From Umezawaea endophytica (GTDB lineage: Bacteria; Actinomycetota; Actinomycetes; Mycobacteriales; Pseudonocardiaceae): 47,160 nucleotides of DNA. The stretch is taken from positions 142,183 to 189,342 of the forward strand of contig NZ_JANYMP010000005.1 in NCBI RefSeq assembly GCF_025061645.1, in the 5' to 3' direction. Under the pieces are notes generated by a model, which was not told the origin of the DNA, searched no databases, and saw only the letters and a program-made list of their open reading frames with translations. A program made the position numbers and the translations under genes. Below are positions 1 to 27,000 of this stretch, piece after piece; positions within the stretch are counted from its first letter, which is position 1, and every line of letters starts with the position of its first letter.

Positions 1-35
1 CGGGCGCGGACGGGACCCGGCCCCGTCCGCGCCCG
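1..35 (-). terminator. Hairpin terminator after the cyclase-like gene
   Basis: Positions 1-14 and 22-35 are exact inverted complements, giving a 14-bp all-G/C stem with a 7-nt loop. It lies 8 nt beyond the stop codon of the minus-strand cyclase-like gene, so it is well placed to end the four-gene signalling operon. There is no clear T-tract, which is usual for actinobacterial terminators. The window edge cuts off the context beyond it. Confidence 0.75.
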
Positions 36-42
36 CCGGTGG

Positions 43-666
43 TCAGCGGACCAGCGGGTGCGGCCACACCAGCGGCTCGTCCGGCACGTGCACCCAGCCG
101 CGCTGGGCCACCGAGCCGATCTGGACGTTCACCAGCGGCGCGAACGACGGCGCGTCGATGCCGTCGTAACCGTGGTGCACCACGGACCAGTACAGGTCGT
201 CCGAGACGACGAGCACCAGCGGCGCGGAGGTCTCCCGCAGCGCCAGCTTCAACCGCGGCGCGTCGAGCAGGCGGCATGCCACGTCGAGCATCTCCCCCGA
301 CTGGCCGAGCTCGTCGAAGTGCACCTCGCCCGCGTGCAGCACCGCCCGCAGGCGGATCGCCAGGTCGGGGAACTCCGCGTTGTGCCTGCCGAGCACCCGG
401 CTCACCTCGGGCACGACCGACTCCAGCAGCAGCGTCTTCGGCACCCGGTCGGACGACCGGATGAGGACGATCGCGCCGTCGCCGCGGTCCAGGGGCGGGT
501 CGAGGTCGGCGTCACCGACGCCGTGCGCGGCGAACGCCTGGCCGAGCGCGCCGTACATCACCCTGCGCAGCTTCTGCTTCTCCATGTTGTTGCGGGTTGT
601 CGAACCCTCGATGTCCACCCCGAACGCGACGCGGTAGACGGGGTGTCGCCTGTCTGCATTGCCCAT
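43..666 (-). CDS. Class III nucleotide cyclase-like signalling protein
   Basis: A 207-residue soluble protein with the fold signature of class III adenylate/guanylate cyclases. The first strand reads FGVDIEGST, matching the usual metal-binding 'FADIxGST', and DRGDGAIVLI matches the second metal Asp segment. The later DVACRLLDA segment sits where active cyclases carry the Asn of 'NxAARL', so that transition-state position is altered and activity is uncertain. No membrane segment or second domain is seen. The ATG at 666 is preferred over a TTG at 702 because a repeated regulatory motif (691-723) overlaps the longer start. It is the last gene of a minus-strand operon, 55 nt after the response regulator. 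Similar stand-alone proteins are common in actinobacteria. A role in nucleotide signalling is inferred. Confidence 0.8.
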   Translation of the reverse strand: MGNADRRHPVYRVAFGVDIEGSTTRNNMEKQKLRRVMYGALGQAFAAHGVGDADLDPPLDRGDGAIVLIRSSDRVPKTLLLESVVPEVSRVLGRHNAEFPDLAIRLRAVLHAGEVHFDELGQSGEMLDVACRLLDAPRLKLALRETSAPLVLVVSDDLYWSVVHHGYDGIDAPSFAPLVNVQIGSVAQRGWVHVPDEPLVWPHPLVR

Positions 667-690
667 GCGGACACGGTCCCGCCCCCGCTT

Positions 691-723
691 TCCCAGGAAC
701 AAGCGGTCCCGCGTCCCGGATTC
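691..723 (-). promoter_or_regulatory. Bipartite motif, copy A, upstream of the cyclase-like gene
   Basis: Read on the minus strand the site is GAATCCGGGACG, an 11-nt spacer, then GTTCCTGGGA. Nearly the same bipartite element (GAATCCGGGACG, 10 nt, GTTCCCGGGA) occurs at 3922-3953 upstream of the first gene of the same operon. Copy A lies across the end of the response-regulator gene, 24 nt before the ATG at 666. Twelve identical bases plus nine of ten in the second half argue for a shared binding site or promoter rather than chance. The factor is unknown. The adjacent response regulator or the GAFTGA activator are candidates. Confidence 0.5.
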
Positions 724-1390
724 ACGGGTGCTCCCCGCCGCCGATGCCGTGCTTGCGCGCCTTCTCGACGACCTCGGCGCGGTCGCGCGCGCCCAGCTTG
801 GACTGGATCTCCCCCGCCCGGTTGGCCACGGTCTTGGTCGCGAGCGTCAACTCGGTGGCGATCTGCTGGTTCGACTGCCCCCTCGCCATCAGCACCAGCA
901 TGCGGTACTCGGCCCGCGTGAGGCGGAACGGCAGGTCGCCGTCCGGCACCTGCTGGTCGAGCAGCGCGGTGATGACCCCCAGGTCCAGCACCGCCTTGTT
1001 GCCCTCCGCCACGGTGCGCACCGCCTGCACGACGTTCGTCTCCTCCTTGCACAGGTAGCCCGCGGCCCCGGCCCTCAGCGAGGCGCGCACGTGTTCGGGC
1101 TCCTCGTGCATGGACAGCACCAGGAGCCTGGTGGCCGGGACCAGCTCGACGATCCGGCGGATCACCTCCGGACCGCAGAGCGTCGGCTCGGCGCCCGCGA
1201 ACCGCGGTATCCGGAGGTCGACCAGCACCACGTCGGGGTGTTCCCGCTCGGTGAACGCGATGGCGTCCTCACCGGTCGCGCACTCGCCCACCACCTCCAC
1301 GTCCTCGGCGTCCTCCAGTTCGCCGCGCAGGCCCCTGACGAAGATCGGGTGGTCGTCCACGATCAGGACCCGGTGTCGCGTGTCCGTCAA
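722..1390 (-). CDS. NarL/LuxR-family response regulator
   Basis: A 222-residue two-component response regulator. The N-terminal receiver domain (about residues 5-125) shows VDDHP, the phospho-acceptor in DVVLVDLRIP and the conserved Lys in LCKEE. The C-terminal LuxR-type helix-turn-helix (about 155-215) shows LTRAEYRMLVLMARG and SNQQIATEL. After DLRIP the loop is several residues longer than the usual DLxMPGxxG, which is odd. The TTG at 1390 is chosen because a good GGAGGG Shine-Dalgarno lies 5-6 nt upstream. Longer reading would run into the kinase gene. It lies 55 nt downstream of the histidine kinase and is its likely partner. Target genes are not known. Confidence 0.92.
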   Translation of the reverse strand: MTDTRHRVLIVDDHPIFVRGLRGELEDAEDVEVVGECATGEDAIAFTEREHPDVVLVDLRIPRFAGAEPTLCGPEVIRRIVELVPATRLLVLSMHEEPEHVRASLRAGAAGYLCKEETNVVQAVRTVAEGNKAVLDLGVITALLDQQVPDGDLPFRLTRAEYRMLVLMARGQSNQQIATELTLATKTVANRAGEIQSKLGARDRAEVVEKARKHGIGGGEHP

Positions 1391-1445
1391 GGTGCCCTCC
1401 CGGTGCGCTGGTGGCACGGCCGTCCGTCCCGACGCCACGACGGGG

Positions 1446-3392
1446 TCATCCCCGCGTGAACGGGATGCGCGCCGTGACGCGGGTTCCGGGAGCGCCGCAG
1501 TCGACGGTGAAGTCCCCACCGAGGTCCTGGCAGCGCTCCTTCATCGATTCCAGCCCGATCCCCGGAACGGGGTTCGGTGCCAGTCCCCGGCCGTCGTCGG
1601 TGACGGCGATCTCCAGGCCGGTGCCGGTGCGGACGACGTCGATCCGGCACTCCGACGCCTCCGCGTGCCGGACGACGTTCGTCAGCGCCTCACTGATCAC
1701 GAGGTAGGCGGCCCGCAGGACGGGGAACGGGACGTCGTCGAGGTCCCCCCTAGGGACGACGTGCACCGCCACCTCGCCGTCCAGGCGGTCCGCCAGCCCG
1801 CGCAGCGCGTTCACCAGTCCCGACCGCAGGTCGAGCGCCTGCACGTCGCGGGCCACCCGCCGCACGGTGCCGGTGAGCGTCTCCAGGTCGGCGACCGCTT
1901 CCCCCAGCCGCCGCCGCGCCTTCTCGTCGGAGCCGTCCATCGTCCGGAGGACGACGCTCACCTGCTTCTGGACGCCCACGACACCGGGGCAGATCATGTC
2001 GTGCAGGTCGTAGCTGATCCGGTGCAGGTCCTCCCGGCGCTTGAGCTCGAACCGCGCGTCCGCGTGGCGCAGCGCCAGCGCCAGCCGCACCGAGTGCACG
2101 GCGGGCGCGGCCTGGCCCGCCAGGTCGTCCAGCAGGCCCAGTTCCCGCGACCCCAGCCGCTCGCCGCCGCCGCGCGCCTCGGCCACCAGCACGCCGATCC
2201 GCTGCCCGCTGTGCCGCAGGTCCACCTCGTGCTGCTCCCACCCGCGCGAGCACCCGTACTCGTCCGGCGCGCGGCAGTCCGCGCCGTCCAGGCGGACCGC
2301 CACGTACGGCAGCTTCAACGCCTCGCCGACCGACGCGGCGATGGCGGGCAGCACCTCGTGCGGGCGGCGGGGGTGCGCCAGCGTGCGCCCCAGTTCCACC
2401 AGCGCCCGGTACGGGTCGCAGCGGTCGCCGAACAGCCACCGGTCCAGCGCCCTCCGGAGCAGCGCGTGCAGCGGCGCGAGCGCCACCACGACCACGAGGG
2501 TCGCGAGCGCGTTGGCGGCGGTGGGGACGCTGGTGGTGGTGACCAGCACGACGGCCGTGTAGGCGCCGATCAGCAGCGCGCCCAGCAGGCCGTAGAGCAG
2601 GGTGCGGTGGATGATCAACTCGATGTCGTACAGGTCGTGCACGGTGATCACCACCACCAGCGCCACCGGGAACGCCATCGCCGCCGCCAGCCAGGCGCCG
2701 CCGGACACCAGTTCCAGCGCCAGCGTCGGGATCCCCAGCACGGCGCCCACCACCGCCCAGCCGAGCACCCGCCGCCGCACCCCGTCCTCCCTGAACCAGC
2801 GCACCACCAGCGAGAGCACGGCCACCGCCAGCGCGACGGCGAACGCCGTGAACCCCGTCCACGCCAGCACCACCGCGACCCCTCTGCGCGCGGTACCGCC
2901 GAAGACCTGCTGCCAGAACGCGACCGGCTCCGACCACGCCGCCCAGCCGACGCCGACCACCGGCAGCACCACCCCGGCCGCCGCGACGGCGACGGCGGGC
3001 CACCACCGGCGGGTGGGAGGCCGTCCCGTTGGGAACAGCAGGAGCACCACCGGCAGCAGCGAGTACGTCGGCCACCAGCTCCAGGTGCCGATCCACGCCG
3101 CCCACGGCTCGTGCGGCGCGGCCGCGGCCCCCACCGCGACCGCGCCGCACACCCCCATCGCGAGCACCAGCCACCCCACGGCGTTGCGCCGCGCGTGGGC
3201 CACGATCCGCTCACCCAGCAGGCAGTACACGACGGCCGTGAACCAGTTGTGCGGGTGCGACGGCTCACCGCCCGTGGTGACGTGCGCGGCCAGCGCGACC
3301 AGCACCAGCGCCGCCGAGCCCATCGCGAGCAGCCGGGAGCCGAACACCGCCCCGCCGCCGCGCCGCGTTCCCACCGTCGGCCCGGATACCAT
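1446..3392 (-). CDS. Membrane sensor histidine kinase (HisKA_3 type)
   Basis: A 648-residue sensor kinase. Roughly residues 15-290 are a long run of hydrophobic segments (about eight or more membrane helices) with no obvious periplasmic domain. A cytoplasmic GAF-like region of about 110 residues follows. The phospho-acceptor is the His in YDLHDMICPG (about residue 464), as in HisKA_3 kinases that pair with NarL regulators. The ATPase domain shows EALTNVVRHA (N box), DDGRGL (G1) and GIGLESMKER (G2). The ATG at 3392 has GGGGGA just upstream. It lies between the small unknown gene (41-nt gap) and its likely response regulator. A membrane-embedded sensor suggests a lipid, envelope or membrane-state signal, but the ligand is unknown. 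Confidence 0.93.
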   Translation of the reverse strand: MVSGPTVGTRRGGGAVFGSRLLAMGSAALVLVALAAHVTTGGEPSHPHNWFTAVVYCLLGERIVAHARRNAVGWLVLAMGVCGAVAVGAAAAPHEPWAAWIGTWSWWPTYSLLPVVLLLFPTGRPPTRRWWPAVAVAAAGVVLPVVGVGWAAWSEPVAFWQQVFGGTARRGVAVVLAWTGFTAFAVALAVAVLSLVVRWFREDGVRRRVLGWAVVGAVLGIPTLALELVSGGAWLAAAMAFPVALVVVITVHDLYDIELIIHRTLLYGLLGALLIGAYTAVVLVTTTSVPTAANALATLVVVVALAPLHALLRRALDRWLFGDRCDPYRALVELGRTLAHPRRPHEVLPAIAASVGEALKLPYVAVRLDGADCRAPDEYGCSRGWEQHEVDLRHSGQRIGVLVAEARGGGERLGSRELGLLDDLAGQAAPAVHSVRLALALRHADARFELKRREDLHRISYDLHDMICPGVVGVQKQVSVVLRTMDGSDEKARRRLGEAVADLETLTGTVRRVARDVQALDLRSGLVNALRGLADRLDGEVAVHVVPRGDLDDVPFPVLRAAYLVISEALTNVVRHAEASECRIDVVRTGTGLEIAVTDDGRGLAPNPVPGIGLESMKERCQDLGGDFTVDCGAPGTRVTARIPFTRG

Positions 3393-3433
3393 TGCTCCCC
3401 CTAGTGGTCTGCGAACACCGTCCCCGCGGTGGT

Positions 3434-3871
3434 TCAGGACGTGCCGGTGAGCCAGTGCCAGAAGTTGTGGCAAGGCGACCCCTCGTCGTACGCCTCGACA
3501 CCCCCGTGCGCCAGCTCGACGTCCCGGTCCAGGCCGCCCCCGCTCAACGTGACGCCCGCCCCGTCGTGCGGGTGCCGGTGCGCGCGTTCCCCGCCGCCGC
3601 GCCGTCCCCCGCGGGCCAACGCCTTCCGCATCGTCGCCAGTTCCGGCAGCAGTCCCGGCCCGACGAGCGCTCCGTACCTCGCCTCGAACAACGCCAGCCC
3701 CTCGCACATCCGGCCCGGCTCGAACGGGACGACGGCGACGTGCGGCACGGCGAAGTGCTCGTTGCCCGTCGGGGCGGCCGCCGCGTAGGCGAGGAACGTG
3801 TCGTGCCACTGGGCCAGGTCTCCGAGGACGGGATGGACGAGCTGCCCTCGGTCTTCGGTGGGTGCGGACAT
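3434..3871 (-). CDS. Small protein of unknown function, first gene of kinase operon
   Basis: A 145-residue soluble protein I do not recognise. The start at 3871 is supported by a GGAGGAG Shine-Dalgarno about 6 nt upstream. The N-terminal half is a plausible folded alpha/beta region. The middle is rich in Gly, Arg and His, and the C-terminus ends with CHNFWHWLTG, an unusual Cys/His/Trp cluster that might bind metal or haem (speculative). No signal peptide or membrane helix is visible. As first gene of the operon with the membrane kinase, regulator and cyclase-like protein, it may be a sensor accessory or an output component. A copy of the bipartite motif (3922-3953) lies 50 nt before its start. 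Confidence 0.72.
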   Translation of the reverse strand: MSAPTEDRGQLVHPVLGDLAQWHDTFLAYAAAAPTGNEHFAVPHVAVVPFEPGRMCEGLALFEARYGALVGPGLLPELATMRKALARGGRRGGGERAHRHPHDGAGVTLSGGGLDRDVELAHGGVEAYDEGSPCHNFWHWLTGTS

Positions 3872-4160
3872 CGATCTCCTCCGGTCGCTGAGCTTCGTGG
3901 TCCAGCGTCCCCATCCCGCGGTCCCGGGAACCAGAGGCGACCGTCCCGGATTCGCAGGGGGAACCCGAGGCACCCCACCACCGGGCGGTGACGGCCGACA
4001 AGGTCAGATGACGCAGAAGGCCGCGAGCACCGCGCGCCGACCTGACGTCGGGCTATTCAGGCCTCTTTTTGCGGAATAGCGCGGGTATCCGCGCATGACC
4101 CCTACCGCCTGGTTCACTGGTGGGGGGAACGCGTCCGGGGGGACGCTCAGGGGGAGAGAA
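3872..4160. other. Divergent intergenic control region
   Basis: About 290 bases separate the kinase operon (minus) from the GAFTGA activator and its leader (plus). The region holds the second copy of the bipartite motif (3922-3953). It also holds a short A/T-richer stretch around 4055-4095 with the small inverted repeat CGCGG-GTAT-CCGCG, and a purine-rich ribosome-binding stretch at 4151-4160. Promoters for both directions must lie here, but no confident -35/-10 pair could be named. Confidence 0.5.
3922..3953 (-). promoter_or_regulatory. Bipartite motif, copy B, upstream of the kinase operon
   Basis: On the minus strand it reads GAATCCGGGACG, 10 nt, GTTCCCGGGA, followed 50 nt later by the start of the small unknown gene. 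It matches copy A at 691-723 in both halves, with one base difference and a 1-nt spacer change. The TCCCGGGAA core is itself palindromic. It lies in the intergenic region shared with the plus-strand activator, so it could act on both directions. Confidence 0.5.
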
Positions 4161-4235
4161 ATGATCTCATGTGGACGTTCGCGCACCCGTAGGTCGTCGA
4201 CCGGCAACGGCGGGTGGAGCCGCCGAGACCAGTGA
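4161..4235 (+). CDS. Possible 24-residue leader peptide of the AAA+ activator
   Basis: The ATG at 4161 has a strong GGGGAGAG Shine-Dalgarno 2-3 nt upstream, better than any site near the next gene. It encodes 24 residues rich in Ser, Arg and Gly, ending in GWSRRDQ. Its TGA (4233-4235) overlaps the GTG at 4232 as GTGA, the usual sign of translational coupling. The activator gene itself lacks a good ribosome-binding site, which fits coupling. It may instead be a chance ORF. Conservation in relatives would decide. Confidence 0.4.
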   Translation: MISCGRSRTRRSSTGNGGWSRRDQ

Positions 4236-5587
4236 CGTGGTTGGTGGACCTGGACGAGCACGCCGCGTCCCGCGCGGTCGTCCGGGCGCTGCGCGCGGCC
4301 GATCCCAGGACGGAGGTGGTCCGCGCGCCGCGCGCCGAACCGTCCGGCCTGGTGCTGTGCTCGCGGGAGTCGGCGGCGCTGGACGAGCTGCTGTCCGCGA
4401 CGGCGGGGGCGGGCTGGCACGTGATCGTCGTGGCGGTCGAGAAGGGGCTGGAGCCGTGGTCGGTGCTGGCGCGCGGCGCGGCCGACGTGCTCACCTGGGA
4501 CGGTGATCCCGAGGCGGTGCTGGCCAGGGTGGCGCGGGCGCGGGAGGTCGACGAGCTGGTGCGCGCGCCGCAGGTGTCGGCCACGCTGCGCGGTTCCAGC
4601 CCGGCGCTGGCGGCGGCGCTGCGGGACCTGGTGACCGCGGCGCGCTTCGCCCGCGGACCGATCCTGATCCTGGGCGAGACCGGGACGGGCAAGGAGTTGG
4701 CGGCTCGCGTCGCGCACCGGATGGAGTCCGGTTCGGGGCCCCTGGTGGTGGTGGACTGCACGACGGTCGTGCCGTCCTTGTCCGGCAGCGAGCTGTTCGG
4801 GCACGAGAAGGGCGCGTTCACCGGTGCCGTCAACGTGCGGATCGGCGCCTGCGCGGCGGCCAACGGCGGGACGCTGATGCTCGACGAGGTCGGCGAACTG
4901 CCGCTGGAGCTCCAGTCCGAGTTGCTGCGCGTGGTGCAGGAGGGCACGTACAAGCGGGTGGGCAGCGACACCTGGCACACCACCAGGTTCAGGCTGGTGT
5001 GCGCGACGAACCGGGACCTCGCGGAGGAGGTGCGGGCGGGTCGGTTCCGCGCCGACCTCTACCACCGGATCGCGGCGTCGACGGTGCGGATGCCGCCGCT
5101 GCGGGACCGGCCCGAGGACGTCGTGCCGCTGTTCACCGCGTTCGTGGCGGAGGCGGAGGGGCGGCGGGAACCCGTGCGGCTGACGTCCTGGGTGGAGCGG
5201 GCGGTGCGCGCCCGCGCCTACCCCGGCAACCTGCGGGACCTGCGGCAGCTCGCGCAGCGGGTGGCGGCGCGCCACGTCGGGCCGGGACCGGTGACGCCGG
5301 GGGACCTGCCGCCCGCCGACCGCCCGGACCGGGCCGGGCCCGCGGTGTCCGCCGAGCCGGACGAGGACAGGGACCTCGGGACGCTGCTGGCGCGCGTGGT
5401 GCGGGTGCACCTCGCGGCCGGGACGAACCTGCGCGACCTGAGGGAGCGGGTGGCCGAGGTCGCGGTGGACGCGGCCCTGTCGGAGGCGGGCGGCAACGTG
5501 CGGGCCGCGGCCGTGCGGCTGGGCGTCACCGACCGGGCGCTGCACCACCGGCTGGCCGAGGCGCGGAAGCGGACCGCCGTGTCCTGA
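4232..5587 (+). CDS. Sigma-54-activator-like AAA+ regulator with GAFTGA
   Basis: A 451-residue bacterial enhancer-binding-type protein. Residues 1-110 look like a degenerate receiver: acidic residues remain after the first strand (LVDLDEH) but the expected phospho-acceptor strand reads LVLCSRES. The AAA+ domain has Walker A GETGTGKE (148-155), GAFTGA (194-199), Walker B TLMLDEVGELP, sensor CATNRDL and arginine finger GRFRADLYHR. The C-terminus has a Fis-like helix-turn-helix (GGNVRAAAVRLGVTDRAL). GAFTGA normally contacts sigma-54, which actinobacteria generally lack, so the protein must work otherwise or is repurposed. The start at 4232 fits the receiver fold and a GTGA overlap with a leader ORF. 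GTG 4214 is an alternative. Its 3' end overlaps the convergent amidohydrolase by 62 bp. Confidence 0.9.
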   Translation: MTWLVDLDEHAASRAVVRALRAADPRTEVVRAPRAEPSGLVLCSRESAALDELLSATAGAGWHVIVVAVEKGLEPWSVLARGAADVLTWDGDPEAVLARVARAREVDELVRAPQVSATLRGSSPALAAALRDLVTAARFARGPILILGETGTGKELAARVAHRMESGSGPLVVVDCTTVVPSLSGSELFGHEKGAFTGAVNVRIGACAAANGGTLMLDEVGELPLELQSELLRVVQEGTYKRVGSDTWHTTRFRLVCATNRDLAEEVRAGRFRADLYHRIAASTVRMPPLRDRPEDVVPLFTAFVAEAEGRREPVRLTSWVERAVRARAYPGNLRDLRQLAQRVAARHVGPGPVTPGDLPPADRPDRAGPAVSAEPDEDRDLGTLLARVVRVHLAAGTNLRDLRERVAEVAVDAALSEAGGNVRAAAVRLGVTDRALHHRLAEARKRTAVS

Positions 5588-6326
5588 CCGCGCGCCGACC
5601 CGTCAACCGCAGCAGGTTGCCGCCCAGCACCAGGGCCGCCCGGTCCGGGGGCAGGCGCAGCGCGCGCACCTTGGCGAGTTCCACGCCGGGGTGCAGGAAC
5701 GGGCCGTCGGAGCCGAACAGGACCTTGTGCGCGCCCGCGAGGCGCACGGCGTCGGCGAGCACGTCGAAGTAGCGGACGCCGGAGGTGTCGGTGAACACGT
5801 TGGGAAGGCGGGTGAGCTGGTCGACGAACGCGGTCTGGGCGCGCCAGTCGTCGGCGAACGTGGACAGGTGCGGGATGATCCAGGCGACGTCCGGGTAGGC
5901 GCGCGCGGCGGTCTCCACCGAGCCGGTGTCGCCGTGCGGGTCGTACAGGACCGGCAGACCGCGTTGCCGGGCCACGTCAGCGATCTCCCTGGTGACGCGC
6001 CCGTCGTGCCAGTGGACCTTGATGCCGCACGCGCCCCACCGCAGGGCGTCGTCGACGACCTCGGCGACCCGGCCGCCCGCGGTGGCGGGGTTGACGTAGG
6101 CGAACCCGAGGTAGCGGCGGGGGTGGGCGCGGACCAGGTCGCCGACGGCGCCGTTGCCCGCGCGGCAGTCCGAGGTCAGCACGGAGAACAGGACGGTGGC
6201 GTCGATGCCCGCGGCACGGGCGCGCGGCCCGTACCGGTGCAGGGACGCGTCGGTGTCCCACGGGCCGGTGAGGCCGTCGCCGAGTCCGGCGTGGCAGTGG
6301 GCGTCGATGATCGGGAAGCGCTTCAC
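5526..6326 (-). CDS. Amidohydrolase family 2 (TIM-barrel metal hydrolase/decarboxylase)
   Basis: A 266-residue protein of the amidohydrolase_2 type. It opens with the metal-binding DAHCH (H10, H12). Later it shows IKVHWHDG, IIPHLST and LFGSDGPF, which match the further His and Asp ligands of the barrel. Family members are hydrolases or non-oxidative decarboxylases of small aromatic or lactone-like substrates. The exact substrate is not evident. The GTG at 6326 overlaps the stop of the aminotransferase gene as GTGA, so the two are co-translated. The C-terminal tail is Arg/Ala-rich and runs antisense into the end of the activator gene for 62 bp. Confidence 0.88.
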   Translation of the reverse strand: MKRFPIIDAHCHAGLGDGLTGPWDTDASLHRYGPRARAAGIDATVLFSVLTSDCRAGNGAVGDLVRAHPRRYLGFAYVNPATAGGRVAEVVDDALRWGACGIKVHWHDGRVTREIADVARQRGLPVLYDPHGDTGSVETAARAYPDVAWIIPHLSTFADDWRAQTAFVDQLTRLPNVFTDTSGVRYFDVLADAVRLAGAHKVLFGSDGPFLHPGVELAKVRALRLPPDRAALVLGGNLLRLTGRRAVRTRRSASAPRPAGGAAPGR

Positions 6327-7354
6327 GAGGCGGCCCTCCCGGCACCGGTGGCGCCCAGCGCGGCGCCGATCAGCGCGATGTCGTCGTCGGTGTGGTCGGC
6401 CCGGATCATCGCGCTGACCAGGGCGCCGGGCAGGCACCGGGGAACCTGGACCACGGCGCGCACGCCGTGCGCGAGCACCCGCGCGTGGTGCCGGTGCGCC
6501 AGGCCGGTGGTGGGGAACCAGGTGTCGGCGACGGGGAACGGCGGGTCGGTGTCGTCCAGCGCCCGTTGGACGCGGCGGACGTGGCGCAGCAGGCGCAGGC
6601 GCGCCCGGCCGGTCCCCCGGTCGGTCAGCGCCCGGTCGGCGGCGGCCAGGTCGGCGGCGGACGGCGGGCCGCAGTGCACGCGGGTGGGGCCGCGCACGGC
6701 CAGCCGGGACAGCGCGTCGGCGTCACCGGTGAGGACGGCCAGCGGGGCGCCGTACGCCTTGGCCAGCGAGGCCACCCACAGCACGTCCCGGTGGTCGATC
6801 CCGCTCCAGCGCGGGGTGCCGGAGCCGTCGCCGAACGCCTCGCCGGGCCGCCGGGCGCCCAGCACGCCGCAGGCCAGCGAGTCGTCCACGACCAGCGAGC
6901 CGCCGTGCGCGCGGGCGACCTCGCGCAGCCGGGCCAGCGGGGCGGCCCGACGGCAGCCGGGGCACCAGCCGTCGGTGACCACGAACAGCCTGCCCCGGCG
7001 CGGTTCGGGCACCAGGTCGGGCCGGTGGTGCGGGTAGTCCACGACCCGCGCGCCCCGCTGCCCCGACAGCAGCGAGGCCCAGCGGGCCACCGGGTAGCAC
7101 GCGGAGTCCACCGCGACCACGTCCCCGCGCTCGGGCAGGCCGCCGAGCACGTCCAGCAGGGCGTGCAGCGCGGAGCGCGCGACCAGCCCGGCGGGCGCGC
7201 CCTGCCCGTCCGCCACCAGCGCGGCCACCCGGCGCGCGGCGGGGACCTCCCGCAGCGCGCCGGGAACCCCGGTGGTGAGCGAACGCCACGGCCGCAGCGC
7301 CCCCGCGGGGTGGCGCAGGCCGAGGAACAGGGCGGAGGTCGCGTCGACGATCAC
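6323..7354 (-). CDS. PLP-dependent aminotransferase class I/II, alpha-oxoamine-synthase-like
   Basis: A 343-residue fold-type I PLP enzyme. It has an N-terminal FLGLRHPAG resembling the 'NYLGL.xHP' opening of 8-amino-7-oxononanoate/2-amino-3-ketobutyrate synthases. LFVVTDG, LVVDDS (the Asp that pairs with the pyridine nitrogen) and GVLG follow, then the Schiff-base Lys in ASLAKAYGAP (K199). The usual DEAHS His is replaced (DDSLAC), and a WCPGC segment is unusual, so it is a divergent member. Some classic C-terminal landmarks are weak. GTG at 7354 overlaps the preceding stop (GTGA), and its own stop overlaps the amidohydrolase start, so three genes are chained. A role in making or degrading an amino-ketone metabolite is inferred. 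Confidence 0.85.
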   Translation of the reverse strand: MIVDATSALFLGLRHPAGALRPWRSLTTGVPGALREVPAARRVAALVADGQGAPAGLVARSALHALLDVLGGLPERGDVVAVDSACYPVARWASLLSGQRGARVVDYPHHRPDLVPEPRRGRLFVVTDGWCPGCRRAAPLARLREVARAHGGSLVVDDSLACGVLGARRPGEAFGDGSGTPRWSGIDHRDVLWVASLAKAYGAPLAVLTGDADALSRLAVRGPTRVHCGPPSAADLAAADRALTDRGTGRARLRLLRHVRRVQRALDDTDPPFPVADTWFPTTGLAHRHHARVLAHGVRAVVQVPRCLPGALVSAMIRADHTDDDIALIGAALGATGAGRAAS

Positions 7355-7854
7355 GCCCGGACCCTCCGCGCGCGCATCCGCTTGGCCAGCAGCGCCGAGG
7401 GCATGGTGGCGTCCACGCCCGCGGTCAGGTCGGCGCCGGTCACGGCCCGGTAGGCGTGGACGTAGCGCTGGACGGACTCGCGGAACAGCAGCGCCCAGTG
7501 CTCGGCGTCCTTGCGGGTGTGGTCGGTGCTGTTCCACTGCCCGTGCCGGACCGACAGCACGAGGCGCTCGCCGTGCACCGCCAGGTCGAAGAAGTGCGTG
7601 ATGCTGGGGTCGGGCCAGCCCTGCAACTCCTTCATGGTGTCCACGCGGTCCATCCACGGTTCCTCGTAGGGCACCATCGGCGGACCGCCGAGGAACTGCC
7701 GCATCTCCTGCCTGCCCAGGATCCACTGCATCGCCAGCATCTCCGCCCGCGCCGTGGGGGCGAGGTCGGCGAACTGGTTGTGCGCGCCGTGCGCCAGCAG
7801 CAGGTGCACCTCGCGCAGGCCGCTGAGGGGAACCCCGTGGCCGTCCGTCCACAA
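7351..7854 (-). CDS. Unrecognised protein linked to the aminotransferase
   Basis: A roughly 167-residue protein of unknown family. It contains HGAHNQFADL near the N-terminus, an acidic/aromatic middle with WPDPSITHFFDL, and VLSVRHGQWNSTDH before a helical C-terminus ending in Arg-rich residues. No signal peptide or membrane helix is seen. The start is uncertain. TTG at 7854, 14 nt after the SnoaL-like gene, gives the longest sensible reading. A GTG about 17 codons in is an alternative, and neither has a clear Shine-Dalgarno. Its stop overlaps the aminotransferase start. Residue composition looks like a real folded protein, and coupling to the enzyme suggests a shared pathway. Confidence 0.65.
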   Translation of the reverse strand: MWTDGHGVPLSGLREVHLLLAHGAHNQFADLAPTARAEMLAMQWILGRQEMRQFLGGPPMVPYEEPWMDRVDTMKELQGWPDPSITHFFDLAVHGERLVLSVRHGQWNSTDHTRKDAEHWALLFRESVQRYVHAYRAVTGADLTAGVDATMPSALLAKRMRARRVRA

Positions 7855-7868
7855 CGGACGGACGGCCG

Positions 7869-8285
7869 CTAGGCGTCGGCGACGCTCGCCAGGGTTTCGG
7901 CCAGTACCAGGGGGTTGAGGTAGTCGCGGTACGAGACGACCAGGCCGTCCCTGATCCGGATCACGGCGATGATGGTCTGGCGCAGGGGCGCGCCCGTGGG
8001 GAGCACGGTGCCGTGGGCGTCGTACTCGACGATCACCACCTCGGGGTCGGTGGTCTCGTGGATCACCGTGTTGCGGTACTCGTCGAACCTGACCAGGCCG
8101 TTGGCCTGCGCCGTCAGGAACTCGCGAATGCGGTCGCGGCCCTCCACCCGGTCGGGCAGGCCCGCGGGCAGGTACGGCCACTCGACGTGGCCGTCCGGGG
8201 CGAACAGGCTCGTGAACGCCTCGGTGTCCTGCTCCCGGCTCGCGCGCAGGAGCTGCTCGACGACCTCGCGTGACGTGGCGGTCAT
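7869..8285 (-). CDS. SnoaL-like (NTF2-fold) polyketide cyclase/isomerase-type protein
   Basis: A 138-residue protein with the SnoaL/NTF2 fold pattern: an N-terminal helix pair, LFAPDGHVEWPYL, a conserved GRDRIREFL helix, then strands VVIVEYDAHGTV and IRIRDGLVVSYRDYLNP. Members range from cyclases and isomerases of polyketide or steroid-like substrates to ketosteroid-isomerase-like proteins of unknown role. ATG at 8285 is chosen over an upstream in-frame ATG that would fall inside the operator region. AAAGTGGG is a weak ribosome-binding site. It is the first gene of the cassette and divergent from the TetR gene, its likely repressor. Confidence 0.88.
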   Translation of the reverse strand: MTATSREVVEQLLRASREQDTEAFTSLFAPDGHVEWPYLPAGLPDRVEGRDRIREFLTAQANGLVRFDEYRNTVIHETTDPEVVIVEYDAHGTVLPTGAPLRQTIIAVIRIRDGLVVSYRDYLNPLVLAETLASVADA

Positions 8286-8298
8286 GGTCGACCCACTT

Positions 8299-8335
8299 TC
8301 GTTGAACGCTTGTTGATTGAACAACCGTAGAACGA
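8299..8335. promoter_or_regulatory. 37-bp imperfect palindrome, probable TetR operator
   Basis: Centred on 8317, the outer arms TCGTT/AACGA (8299-8303, 8331-8335) and inner arms TTGTT/AACAA (8310-8314, 8320-8324) share one centre. Fourteen of 18 base pairs match. It lies 14 nt before the SnoaL-like start and 36 nt before the TetR start. A second, shorter inverted repeat GGTCA-N12-TGACC occurs at 8347-8368. Position and symmetry fit autoregulation of the divergent pair by the TetR protein. Confidence 0.6.
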
Positions 8336-11790: not shown

Positions 11791-12513
11791 TCACCGGCCG
11801 GGGTGGCGGGAATCCGGCAGCACCCGCTCCCACGGGCTCGACCGCGCGCCGGACGGGGCCAGCACCACGCCGTCGGCCAGCAGCGTCAGCGGTGGCGGTG
11901 GCTCACCGCGCTCGGCGGCGGCCACGAGGTCGCGCAGGCGCCGCAGCACGGCGCCGTAGAACCGCTTCTGGGTCCACCGGCCGAACACCTGGAACCCCGC
12001 CCTGATCACCGGGTTCGGCAGCGGGGCGCGCCGGGAGTAGCCGCTGACCCTGAACGACACGGCCCCCGAGGTGAGGTCCTTGACGACCTCGTAGCTGAGC
12101 CTGCCCTCCTCCAGGTGCCCGCGCAGCGTCTGGTAGCTCCACCCCCACACCCGTTCGGACTCCTCGCCCGTTCCCCTGGTCTCGTCCACGACGGAGGTGA
12201 CCCGCACCCCGAGGTAGAACCGCAGACCGGCGAACCGGCCCTCCAGCAGCATGTCGCGGCCGAGCAGTTCGTCGTCACGCCGGTAGAAGGCCCGCATGAT
12301 CGACGGGTCGGAGAACTCGTACCGCTCGACCAGCAGGCAGGCACGGGCCCAGGCGCCGTCCGGCAGCGGTGGCCCCGGCGGTTCGGCGCCGACCACCGCG
12401 ACGGCCGAGTCGACGTGCCAGTGCCCGGCCGCCACCCCGTCCACGGGCGCGGCGCGGGGGTCGTAGTTCAGCGGGAGGCCGCACAGGGCGTCGAGTTCGG
12501 CGGTGGGCTCCAT
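11791..12513 (-). CDS. DUF1990-family protein
   Basis: A 240-residue protein of the DUF1990 family. The signature half is VWGWSYQTLRGHLEEG, then SFRVSGYSRRAPLPNP, then a helix ending in FYGAVLRRLRDLV. The function is unknown in the family, and a lipid- or START-like beta fold has been suggested for relatives (inference). No signal peptide is seen. The ATG at 12513 follows directly after the TAG of the small membrane protein gene, with no spacer, so the two are co-translated. A second DUF1990 gene is divergent at 12793. Having two copies face-to-face around one promoter suggests a shared task at the membrane. Confidence 0.8.
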   Translation of the reverse strand: MEPTAELDALCGLPLNYDPRAAPVDGVAAGHWHVDSAVAVVGAEPPGPPLPDGAWARACLLVERYEFSDPSIMRAFYRRDDELLGRDMLLEGRFAGLRFYLGVRVTSVVDETRGTGEESERVWGWSYQTLRGHLEEGRLSYEVVKDLTSGAVSFRVSGYSRRAPLPNPVIRAGFQVFGRWTQKRFYGAVLRRLRDLVAAAERGEPPPPLTLLADGVVLAPSGARSSPWERVLPDSRHPGR

Positions 12514-12792: not shown

Positions 12793-13491
12793 ATGACACC
12801 CGCGAGCGGAGCCGCCCGGCTGGCGACGGTTCTGTGGTGGCCGGTAGGACTGGCGGTGGTGGCCTGGCGCTACCTCTGGCGAACCACCCCCCTGCACCGC
12901 TCCGACGAGGCGGGCGGCCCGGAGGACCTCCCCGACTTCGACGACGACGTGCCCGGCGGCCGGGCGCAGCGGATCGCCGACGGCACGGGCCCCCTGCTCC
13001 ACCGGACGTACGCGATCAGGATCGTCGACAGCCCGCTGAGCGCCCCGGAACTGGTGGACGTCGTCGCCCGCGGGCTCAACAGGGCCTCGCCGGAGATGGC
13101 GGTGTTCCACAAGACCCGCGGGTCGAACGGCTCGGTGCGGCTGGGTGACGAACTCGTGGTGCGGATGCCCGGCCCGTGGGACGGACCGGTGCGGGTGACC
13201 GGGAGGGACGGCACGTCGTTCCGGCTGTCCACCCTGGCCGGGCACCTCGAAGCCGGTCACATCGAGTTCCGCGCGAGCGCCGCGGACGACGTGCTGCACT
13301 TCGAGATCGAGTCGTGGTGCCGGGCGGGTGACCGGCTGTCGCACCTGCTGTACAACCGCGTCGGGTTCGCCAAGGAGGTGCAGTTGAACATGTGGACGCA
13401 CTTCTGCGTCCGCACCGCCGCGCTCGCCGGGGGCAGGTACCGGGGAGGCGTCACCATCCGGACGCGGCGCGTCGACTGGCCAGCCCGCTAG
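12793..13491 (+). CDS. DUF1990-like protein with N-terminal membrane helix
   Basis: A 232-residue protein. Residues about 8-28 (TVLWWPVGLAVVAWRYLW) form a membrane anchor. An acidic linker follows, then a beta-rich domain with RLSTLAGHLEAGHIEFRAS and a helix near HLLYNRVGFAKEVQLNMW, the DUF1990-like pattern. A membrane-attached member next to a cytoplasmic one (11791-12513) suggests partners. It is divergent from the small membrane protein gene over 63 bp and convergent with the DivIVA-like gene, with which it shares a CTAG stop. Function unknown. Confidence 0.75.
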   Translation: MTPASGAARLATVLWWPVGLAVVAWRYLWRTTPLHRSDEAGGPEDLPDFDDDVPGGRAQRIADGTGPLLHRTYAIRIVDSPLSAPELVDVVARGLNRASPEMAVFHKTRGSNGSVRLGDELVVRMPGPWDGPVRVTGRDGTSFRLSTLAGHLEAGHIEFRASAADDVLHFEIESWCRAGDRLSHLLYNRVGFAKEVQLNMWTHFCVRTAALAGGRYRGGVTIRTRRVDWPAR

Positions 13492-24030: not shown

Positions 24031-27000
24031 CGCGCGTCCGGGCCGCCGTGGGCCTGCTCCGCAACCCCACGGCGTGGATCATGGCGGGTCTCGTGCTGCT
24101 GTCGTTCCTGCAACGCCCCGGCCGCACGACCTTCGACACCAAGCTCGACCTGGTGGTCGACCCGATCGCGTTCCTCGGCCGCGCGCTGCACCTGTGGAAC
24201 CCGGCGGCCAGCGGCGGCGAGTTGCAGAACCAGGCGTACGGCTACCTGTTCCCGATGGGGCCGTACTTCGCGCTGTGCCAGGTGTTGGGGATGCCGCCGT
24301 GGATCGCCCAGCGCCTGTGGTGCGCGCTGCTGCTGTGCGCCGCGTTCGGCGGTGTCCTCGCCGTGGCGCGCGCGTTGCGGATCGGCAGCGCACCGGCGCA
24401 GTACCTGGGGGCCGTCGCCTACGCGCTGGCACCGCGGATGCTCACCGAGATCGGCCCGCTGTCGGCGGAGATGGTCGCCGCCGTGATGCTGCCGTGGATC
24501 CTGCTGCCCCTGGTCAAGGCCGACCGGATCGGGTCGCCGCGGCGGGCGGCGGGGCTGTCCGGGCTGGCGACCCTCGGCGTCGGCGGGATGAACGGCGCGC
24601 TGGTGCTCACGGTCCTGCTGCTGCCCGGACTGTGGCTGCTGACCCGGCGGTGGACCGTCCGGCACGTCCGGCTCGTGCTCTGGTGGTGCGCGTCCGTGGT
24701 GGCGGCCGTGCTGTGGTGGCTGCTGCCGCTGATGCTGCTGGGCGAGTACAGCCTGCCGTTCGTCGACTACGTCGAGTCCGCCGCCAACACCACGGCGCCG
24801 ACGTCGCTGTTCCAGGTCCTGCGCGGCACCAACCAGTGGGTCGCCTACGTCGTGCAGGGCAGCCCGTGGTGGCCGTCCGGCTTCCTGCTGGTCGACAACC
24901 CGGTCCTGATGCTGGCCACCGGGCTCGTCGCGGCGGTCGGCCTCGCCGGACTGGTCCGGCGGGGGCTGCCGGAGCGGCTGTTCCTGACGATCGGCGTCGT
25001 CGCGGGCGTCACCGTGATGACCATCGGCTACGTCGGGGCGCTCGACAGCCCGCTGTCCCACACCGTCCGCGCGCTGCTGGACGGTCCGCTGGCCCCGCTG
25101 CGCAACGTGCACAAGTTCGAGCCCGGACTGCGGCTGCCGTTGATGCTCGCGTTCACGCACGCCGTGTCGGGCCTGAGGTTCCCGGCCGCCGCGGGCAAGG
25201 CGTTCGCGGGCCGGGCGAGGCTCGCCGTCGGTGTCGTGCTGGTGGCCGTGATGGCCGTGCCCGCGTGGACGTTCACGCTGCGGCCGGGGCCGGGGTGGCA
25301 GGAGATCCCGGAGTACTGGCGTTCCGCGATGACGTGGCTGGCCGACAACGACCCGGACGCCCGCACGCTCCTGCTGCCCGGCACCGGCTTCGGCGAGTAC
25401 ACCTGGGGCAAGACGGTCGACGAGCCCGCGCAGGCGCTGGCCAGGTCCCCCTGGGCGCTGCGCAGCCAGATCCCGCTGGGCTCGGAGGGCAACACCCGGC
25501 TGATGGACGCGGTCGAGGACGCGCTCGCCGACGGCCGCGGCGCACCGGGGCTCGCCGACTTCCTCGCCCGGTCCGGGCACCGGTTCCTGCTGGTGCGCAA
25601 CGACATCGACCGCGTCTCCACCGACGCTCCACCGGTCACGGTGCTGCGCGACGCGCTGGCCCGCTCCGCCGGCATCGAGCGGGTGAAGACGTTCGGCCCG
25701 GTCGTCGAGCCGGGTGAGCACCCGGTGGTCGGCTCGATCGACCTCGACGCCGCTGACGCGCCCGCGCTGGAGGTCTACGAGGTGAAGCGGTCGGTGCCGC
25801 GCGCGGTCGCGGTGCACGCCGAGGACCTCGCGACGGTGAGCGGCGGCCCGGAATCCCTGTTGCCGCTGCTCGACTCCGGCGTGCTGAGGGGCGATCGTCC
25901 CGCCGTCCTGGCCGGTGACGGCGGCGCGCCGGGGAGCCGGGACTGGCTCGTCACCGACGGTCTGCGCCACCGCGAGCGCAACGTCGGGCGGATGCGCGAC
26001 AACGTGAGCCAGACGCTCACCCCCGACGAGCGGCCCAGGCAGGACCGGCCCGCGTCGGACATCCTGCCGTTCCCCGGTCCTGAGCACCTGACGGTCGCGG
26101 CCTACCGGGGGATCCGCGGCGTCACCGCGTCGAGTTCGGCGAGCTACGCGGACTCCGTCAGGGCGTCCGACCCGTCGTCCATGCCGTTCGCCGCGATCGA
26201 CGGGGACCCCTACAGCGCCTGGCAGTCCTCCACCTTCGACGGGCCTGCCGGGCAGTGGCTCGAAGTCGGCCTGGACACGCCACGGGTGGTCGACCAGGTG
26301 TCGCTGCGGATGGTGGACGACATCCGGGTCGGCTGGCCGGTCACCCGGATCAGGATCACCACCGACTCGGGTTCCCGCGAGCACGAGGTCGCCAGGGGCG
26401 CCGGGGAGCAGGTGTTCCCGGTGTCGCCGGGGCTCACGAGCCGGGTCCGGGTCACCGTGCTGTCGGTGGCGGCGGAGTTGACCAGCGGCTCCGTCGGCAT
26501 CGCCGAGCTGTCGGTGCCGGGTGTGACCGCCCAGCGGGCGCTGCGGGTGCCCACCGACGTCCAGCCCGATCCCGCGCAGCGGACGAGCTTCGTGTTCAGC
26601 CGCGGCTCCCAGCCGCGCTACTCGTGCACGGGCACCGACGGCGACCAGCGGTGCGACGTGGGGCTGTCCAGGAGCGGTGAGGAGCCGAACGGGATCCACC
26701 GGCTCTTCCGCACCCGCGAGGACGCGAACTACCGTCTCGAAGGGACGGTCCTGCCGACCGTCGGCGGCGTTCTCCCCGTCACCGCACCGGGTCTGACCGT
26801 CTCCAGCACCACCCAGCTCGCCGGTGACCCGGCCGCCGCGCCGCTGGCCGCGGTCGACGTGAACCCGGCCACGACGTGGATCGCCGACTACACCGACGAG
26901 GAACCCACGCTGCGCCTGAGCTGGCCCGCCGCCCGTGACGTCACCGGCCTGCGGCTGACGACGTCGGAGCTGTCCGGCGCGTCCCGCCCCACCGAGGTGC

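Follow-up and report, generated by a model that had tools for sequence, protein, structure and literature searches.

Actinobacteria commonly serve as an example of a large phylum that lacks sigma-54. The absence of a sigma-54 system from Actinobacteria has been reported (PMC3162934, available part), and according to a 2025 statement the phylum "effectively lacks a functional RpoN" (PMC12316311, available part). The latter source also names rare divergent rpoN genes of Actinomycetota, in Alloactinosynnema sp. L-07, Modestobacter marinus BC501 and Citricoccus sp. SGAir0253-1 (PMC12316311). GAFTGA-type AAA+ activators (EBPs) have been described as orphans in the genomes of F. nucleatum and Jannaschia sp. 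CCS1, which are without rpoN and in whose EBPs the Thr/Ser of the GAFTGA motif is replaced by Glu (PMC3162934). The available part of the same paper contains the proposal of a sigma-70-type mode of operation for TyrR, DhaR and the F. nucleatum and Jannaschia EBPs (PMC3162934).

The window analysed here is a stretch of 47,160 nucleotides from Umezawaea endophytica (contig NZ_JANYMP010000005.1, positions 142,183 to 189,342 of the forward strand), and it encodes an EBP. The reading preferred here, at a probability of roughly 85%, is that this activator is the leftover of a self-contained sigma-54 regulon that was broken by deletion, with loss of the sigma-54 itself.

The window activator and its genome

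The activator has the following parts:

4214..5587, + strand: GAFTGA-type AAA+ activator (EBP) of 457 aa, one open frame, PF00158 at 3.5e-52
4592..5086, + strand: Sigma54_activat AAA+ domain (Pfam), residues 127-291
4811..4828, + strand: GAFTGA loop, the same in 14 of 15 aligned relatives and GSFTGA in one
5468..5560, + strand: Fis-type HTH (HTH_8), residues 419-449, sub-threshold at 20.8 bits against a cut-off of 22

The frame runs from a GTG at 4214 to the stop at 5587; the GTG at 4232 lies in the same frame, six codons downstream. By Pfam, Sigma54_activat lies over its cut-off (3.5e-52, 176.9 bits), with further matches to AAA_lid_14 (1.1e-07) and HTH_8 (0.00031). The motifs GETGTGKE, GAFTGA, LMLDEVGEL, CATNRDL, FRADLYHRI and YPGN are all present, and we take them to be Walker A, GAFTGA, Walker B, sensor I, the arginine-finger motif and sensor II, respectively. 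An earlier reading of the DNA alone (the sequence-only reading) had proposed an intact GAFTGA AAA+ activator, and the single open frame with its Walker A, Walker B, arginine-finger and GAFTGA motifs bears this out. The check for GAFTGA drift in close orthologues that it had suggested revealed no drift. Its proposal of a Fis-type end holds in so far as an HTH is likely, but the HTH_8 match stays just under the cut-off. A receiver unable to accept phosphate had also been proposed: a conserved phosphoacceptor is indeed lacking, but no receiver domain (Response_reg), the mark of NtrC-type response regulators, was detected at all by Pfam at E ≤ 0.001. By eye, the first ~120 residues have a partial likeness to a receiver, and no acceptor Asp is conserved in the regulatory domain across 16 aligned activators; absent phosphorylation therefore looks like a family trait of the cluster activators described below.

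The sequence state of the activator was compared with that of its relatives. It deviates at 8 of the 87 AAA+ columns that are shared by at least 14 of the other 15 rows (range in the others, 0-8), which ties it with the most divergent row of the alignment. Walker A, GAFTGA and the Asp-Glu of Walker B are untouched by these deviations, one of which is an M for F beside Walker B. GC per codon position in the frame is 0.79/0.54/0.97. A frame without decay, with a GC3 of 0.97 and its motifs kept, fits a recent loss of the partner and would equally fit retained function; the relatives are too distant for pairwise dN/dS to judge selection.

The genome of the organism (G000) is a draft assembly of 11.02 Mb in 65 contigs, listed as 99.89% complete and 4.78% contaminated. 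Six Sigma54_activat matches were found in it, all over the Pfam cut-off; only that of the window activator is strong (2.2e-52), the other five lying at 6.1e-10 to 4.7e-5. Sigma54_DBD (PF04552) and Sigma54_CBD (PF04963) had no match in the assembly; the same two domains matched 4 of 14 control genomes (E. coli, B. subtilis, Caulobacter vibrioides and Bacteroides ihuae). Furthermore, with the RpoN of a relative's cluster as query, all 68 candidates were scored and none matched at E ≤ 0.01, in a search that recovered two other such RpoNs at 4.0e-32 and 2.7e-31. The expectation that the genome lacks sigma-54 was thus confirmed for the draft assembly, by Pfam domains and by a relative's sigma-54. 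A hidden rpoN elsewhere in the assembly was rejected, both genome-wide searches being empty. A sigma-54 in the same genome, as expected for an EBP, was found in all 12 other actinobacterial holders of the activator and not in the draft assembly studied here.

The divergent kinase/regulator/cyclase operon, which the sequence-only reading had noted next to the activator, does adjoin it, but a functional tie is unlikely. Window positions 27-3961, which hold the operon, are syntenic in the genus mate G022 at 79% DNA identity, and no match to the activator was found in the G022 genome. Because the operon is kept where no activator was found, it is probably a mere neighbour, and a linkage of the two was rejected. 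A transposase-like ORF (named by eye) lies ~1.3 kb from the syntenic block in G022. Elsewhere in the window, two DUF1990 genes at 11791-12513 (-) and 12793-13491 (+) point apart.

The conserved cluster and its sigma-54

Homologues of the activator at E ≤ 1e-15 occur in 3 of 394 genomes of the class, 11 of 390 of the family (own genome counted in both) and 1 of 3 in the genus. The large class, family and phylum searches scored the best four candidates per genome, and one other large search the best 11. Twelve other actinobacterial genomes hold the activator, and in each of them a divergent rpoN lies within ~20 kb. When the stretch around each of these activators (20 kb; 36 kb for the nearest relative, G429) was mapped with HMMs, a conserved cluster emerged that comprises rpoN, the glycine-rich proteins X1 and X2, a protein with an HEVGH motif (G440), a large protein (G520), sometimes a PLP gene and an amidohydrolase gene, and the activator. 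The genes for RpoN, X1 and/or X2, G440 and G520 are present in 12/12 clusters. The PLP gene is found in six of the 12 stretches (G429, G092, G681, G680, G713 and G640) and the amidohydrolase gene in eight (G429, G640, G713, G549, G631, G651, G610 and G700). In G429 the order is rpoN-X1-X2-G440-G520-PLP-AMH-EBP. No description of this cluster was found in open-licence papers.

In a quick tree of 51 activators (SH-aLRT support only; window row flagged for odd letter make-up), the window activator pairs with that of G429 (SH-aLRT 99) inside a 16-row clade of cluster activators (100). The outgroup was taken from a search of genome contigs that gave at least 80 loci: a length filter left 69 activators, and alternate ones, 35 in all, were used; no actinobacterium stands in the record titles of related loci among the at least 80 matches listed. 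Because the window groups with G429 inside the cluster clade, descent of its activator from an rpoN-bearing cluster would be the simple reading.

Several features of the cluster proteins can be described. X1 and X2 (L095:7276-8914 (+) and counterparts) are paralogues with acidic N-termini, glycine-rich middles and an end of the GRWxRxG...IVI type; they had no confident family match, and they are perhaps surface or membrane-active proteins. G440 (L095:8945-10273 (+)) carries an HEVGH motif, which we take to be typical of zinc metallopeptidases; searches with it found nothing in Pfam or NCBIfam at E ≤ 0.01, nor in the PDB at E ≤ 1. Family and PDB searches with G520 gave no useful match, the two PDB matches being at E 0.14 and 0.99. 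The activators of G610, G651 and G631 (L117, L118 and L119) end soon after the AAA+ domain, the Fis-type HTH being absent in the stretch aligned, and that of G700 is also without an HTH end in the stretch aligned, with a stop inside its match. Some EBPs without an HTH act from solution.

PF04963 and PF04552, the core-binding and DNA-binding domains of sigma-54, were over cut-off in all three (of 12) cassette RpoNs that were scanned, and the remaining nine were identified by a model built from these three. Region I gave a weak match or none, with PF00309 at 17.5 bits (cut-off 23.8) in one protein and no listing at E ≤ 0.01 in two others, and NCBIfam rpoN_sigma is the top family for two scanned proteins at 159 and 177 bits against a cut-off of 277. 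Of 11 cassette RpoNs (G713, cut by the stretch fetched, was left out), 10 carry two CxxC pairs between Region I and the core-binding domain and G372 carries one pair; none was seen at that place in five other RpoNs of the phylum that were aligned. The RpoN box is near ARRTVxKYR, with KHR or RRA variants. In a quick tree of 28 rows, the 12 cassette RpoNs group together (SH-aLRT 99); outside the group stand 15 other rpoN genes from the phylum and a partial gammaproteobacterial sequence. In the 394-genome class sample, the three-sequence rpoN model found rpoN in two genomes only, G429 and G372, which are also the two that have the activator besides the own genome; both had helped to build the model, which is not narrow, having found 15 other holders in the phylum sample. 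This other kind of rpoN (L139-L153) occurs in 15 of 396 Actinomycetota genomes, all outside the class of the window, and the statement that the phylum lacks sigma-54 is therefore too broad.

Sites of the -24/-12 type were scored with an unfitted matrix for the consensus TGGCACG-N4-TTGCW (maximum 18.2). Counts at scores of 9 and above were near chance in a first scan with per-base shuffles, so only the top scores and their positions are informative. In the 300 bp that precede the X1 homology start, the best site scores 15.1-18.2 in 11 of the 12 actinobacterial clusters, three of them at 18.2, and 0.4-2.3% of equal-sized windows per locus reach that score in those 11. In G549 the best such site is weak (10.7, with 6.4% of equal-sized windows scoring as high). 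Twenty sites of at least 15 occur in 240 kb of the 12 loci, and 16 of these are upstream of X1 (11), rpoN (4) or G440 (1). No site of at least 15 was found in 65 kb around the window (best 14.5, at 24427), which is no surprise, because six shuffles of the 65 kb gave 0, 3, 1, 0, 0 and 2 such sites, about one per 65 kb; 16 in place are surprising. A non-standard partner or another remodelling target, as envisaged in the sequence-only reading, thus finds no support, given rpoN in 12/12 clusters and strong sites upstream of X1 in 11/12. For the family as a whole, a non-standard partner was rejected, the relatives carrying sigma-54.

The remaining four sites comprise one in G680 without a label and three before a shared gene of ~680 aa. 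The latter are identical sigma-54-like sites 56-57 bp before the gene in G610, G651 and G631 (L117:6597 +, L118:7232 + and L119:12711 -). Their place outside the cluster hints at a wider regulon, with this gene as a possible second member.

Relatives of G520 are also found on four plasmid records, three of which were examined (Ensifer adhaerens, Rhizobium sp. CCGE532 and Paraburkholderia phymatum). These clusters have nearly the same gene set, including the activator; the PLP gene was not found in P. phymatum, nor the amidohydrolase gene in Rhizobium. The plasmid stretches came without feature annotation. No rpoN was found in ~21 kb of the three clusters, and these hosts presumably have a housekeeping rpoN elsewhere. 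This distribution suggests that the cluster needs sigma-54 and, in hosts without it, brings its own. The three proteobacterial activators branch among the actinobacterial ones, on forks that are open or below 95. The site upstream of X1 scores 18.2 in Ensifer, 16.7 in Rhizobium and 3.3 in P. phymatum, the last being none by the same measure.

The truncated copy in the window and its explanations

Beyond the activator, the window holds the following features of the cluster and its junction:

5526..6329 (ORF 5526-6437), - strand: amidohydrolase (AMH), kept cluster gene, PF04909 at 1.3e-14, 53% to G429
6323..7351, - strand: PLP-dependent aminotransferase-fold gene, kept, 51% to G429 over 329 aa
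7351..7839, - strand: G520 3' remnant, last ~160 of ~520 codons, 63% to G429 over 157 aa
7839..7867, no strand: perfect inverted repeat at the junction, arms of 12 bp and loop of 5 bp, fold -33.8 kcal/mol, z -3.53
7869..8324, - strand: SnoaL-like gene abutting the junction, PF12680 at 5.9e-18

The window PLP ORF has a weak PF00155 match (0.0026), below cut-off, and its G429 relative matches bioF at 1.6e-13, also below cut-off. The G520 remnant spans profile positions 373-530 of 533, and a full G520 query against the own genome (E ≤ 0.1) matched only over residues 360-521 (62%), at the window locus. Its composition is coding-like (GC 0.72/0.46/0.98). By eye, the remnant is without a good start of its own, an in-frame TTG sitting in the loop of the repeat, and its frame is open upstream through the SnoaL-like gene. 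The SnoaL-like gene, which adjoins a TetR gene, had no match among the ORFs of three relatives compared, and the inverted repeat may be its terminator. Identity to G429 is 54% for the activator, 53% for the amidohydrolase, 51% for the PLP gene and 63% for the remnant; the remnant is thus the most similar of the retained genes, as would be expected if the cut postdates the divergence.

HMMs found no rpoN, X1, X2 or G440 in the window and 18 kb upstream, and a second comparison for the same genes in this stretch gave chance-level matches only (E 0.053 or weaker, with a 37-residue rpoN match at 0.096). The window keeps one contiguous end of the G429 order (G520 tail-PLP-AMH-EBP), the contiguous other end being missing, and therefore one deletion suffices. 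It is this truncation that sets the window copy apart from the other holders. The empty site was not recovered, as G022 is syntenic on the left flank only.

From these observations we infer the following course of events. The ancestral unit would have comprised a divergent rpoN, the GAFTGA activator and an X1-X2-G440-G520 operon, often with PLP and/or amidohydrolase, behind a -24/-12 promoter, and clusters of this make-up occur sporadically in the actinobacterial class of the window. In an intact, working copy, the cassette sigma-54 would load the host RNA polymerase onto the promoter upstream of X1, and the activator hexamer, using ATP and its GAFTGA loop, would open the complex, leading to expression of the operon. 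In four copies rpoN, too, is preceded by a -24/-12 site, which suggests self-amplification. In the lineage of the window, a single contiguous deletion would have removed rpoN, X1, X2 and G440 together with the target promoter and the 5' two thirds of G520, with a breakpoint near 7839-7869 beside the SnoaL-like gene. The activator, amidohydrolase and PLP genes, still open, would be stranded, and the activator most likely idles without a transcription target now.

Other explanations differ in what they make of the missing partner. The activator could have been re-purposed after the loss of sigma-54 and be kept by selection, acting together with a polymerase of the sigma-70 type or repressing a local promoter by binding its DNA. 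It still resembles a working gene, with frame and AAA+ motifs complete, an HTH likely and a GC3 of 0.97, and orphan EBPs with a proposed sigma-70 switch exist (PMC3162934, available part). However, the two orphan genome cases described there have Glu at motif position 4 (PMC3162934), where GAFTGA is intact here, and no conserved local target is visible, the kinase operon being conserved in G022 with no activator found there. We regard re-purposing as quite improbable. The joint claim that sigma-54 enters the class, which otherwise nearly lacks it, as a self-sufficient regulon (a sigma factor with a Cys-pair insert, one activator and a target operon with -24/-12 promoters) and that the surviving window activator has been re-employed with another form of the polymerase would likewise be unlikely.

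Alternatively, the missing part may be present in the organism and absent from the assembly, through a gap, a misassembly or a plasmid, in which case the strain has sigma-54. A draft in 65 contigs with a listed contamination of 4.78% leaves some room for this, yet the contig is continuous across the junction, the listed completeness is 99.89%, the G520 remnant passes straight into a SnoaL/TetR pair whose ORFs are good, and the genome-wide rpoN and G520 searches gave no further match; this makes such a missing piece very unlikely. The window might also descend from a cluster like those of the proteobacteria, in which an rpoN was never included, in line with the three plasmid clusters lacking rpoN in ~21 kb, whose activators branch among the actinobacterial ones. 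However, the window activator is sister to that of G429 (99), whose cluster has rpoN, and such an inheritance would leave the truncated G520 and the missing X1, X2 and G440 unexplained, so that it deserves the least credence of these explanations.

Comparison with described systems

On the preferred reading of a regulon broken by deletion, the window would represent a natural loss of a sigma factor with its activator left behind, which would account for an intact GAFTGA without a new partner. The main interest lies in the cassette itself, however, and not in the orphan activator: in 12 genomes from the class of the window, sigma-54, an activator and promoter-like sites make up one compact unit. 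It raises the questions of whether actinobacterial RNA polymerase can use sigma-54 and whether such control can enter a lineage as one piece.

Compared with RpoN/sigma-54 (TIGR02395), the cassette proteins share the core-binding and DNA-binding domains and the RpoN box, but they fall below the cut-off of the family (in the two scanned), match Region I weakly or not at all and carry CxxC pairs. The window activator resembles EBPs of the NtrC/NorR/FleQ class in its AAA+ core, GAFTGA, sensor and arginine-finger motifs and likely Fis-type HTH; its best NCBIfam matches are NorR and RtcR, and its best PDB matches FleQ and a nitrogen assimilation regulator. It differs from them in lying below the cut-off of all 25 NCBIfam families among the matches listed, in having no recognisable receiver, in belonging to its own clade with the cluster activators and in that no sigma-54 was found in its genome. 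With the orphan EBPs of F. nucleatum and Jannaschia sp. CCS1 it shares the condition of an EBP in a genome without rpoN (PMC3162934, available part). Unlike in those cases as described there, the window activator keeps its GAFTGA, and the loss of the partner gene can be read from the truncated cluster. Finally, the rpoN genes named in the available part of PMC12316311 are, like the cassette genes, rare and divergent within the phylum. Each of the 12 divergent rpoN genes described here is accompanied by a GAFTGA activator, and in 11 of these clusters X1 is preceded by a strong -24/-12 site. Cassettes with their own activator and putative promoters in this class argue, at the sequence level, against the conclusion, as worded in that part, that the phylum is effectively without a functional RpoN (PMC12316311).
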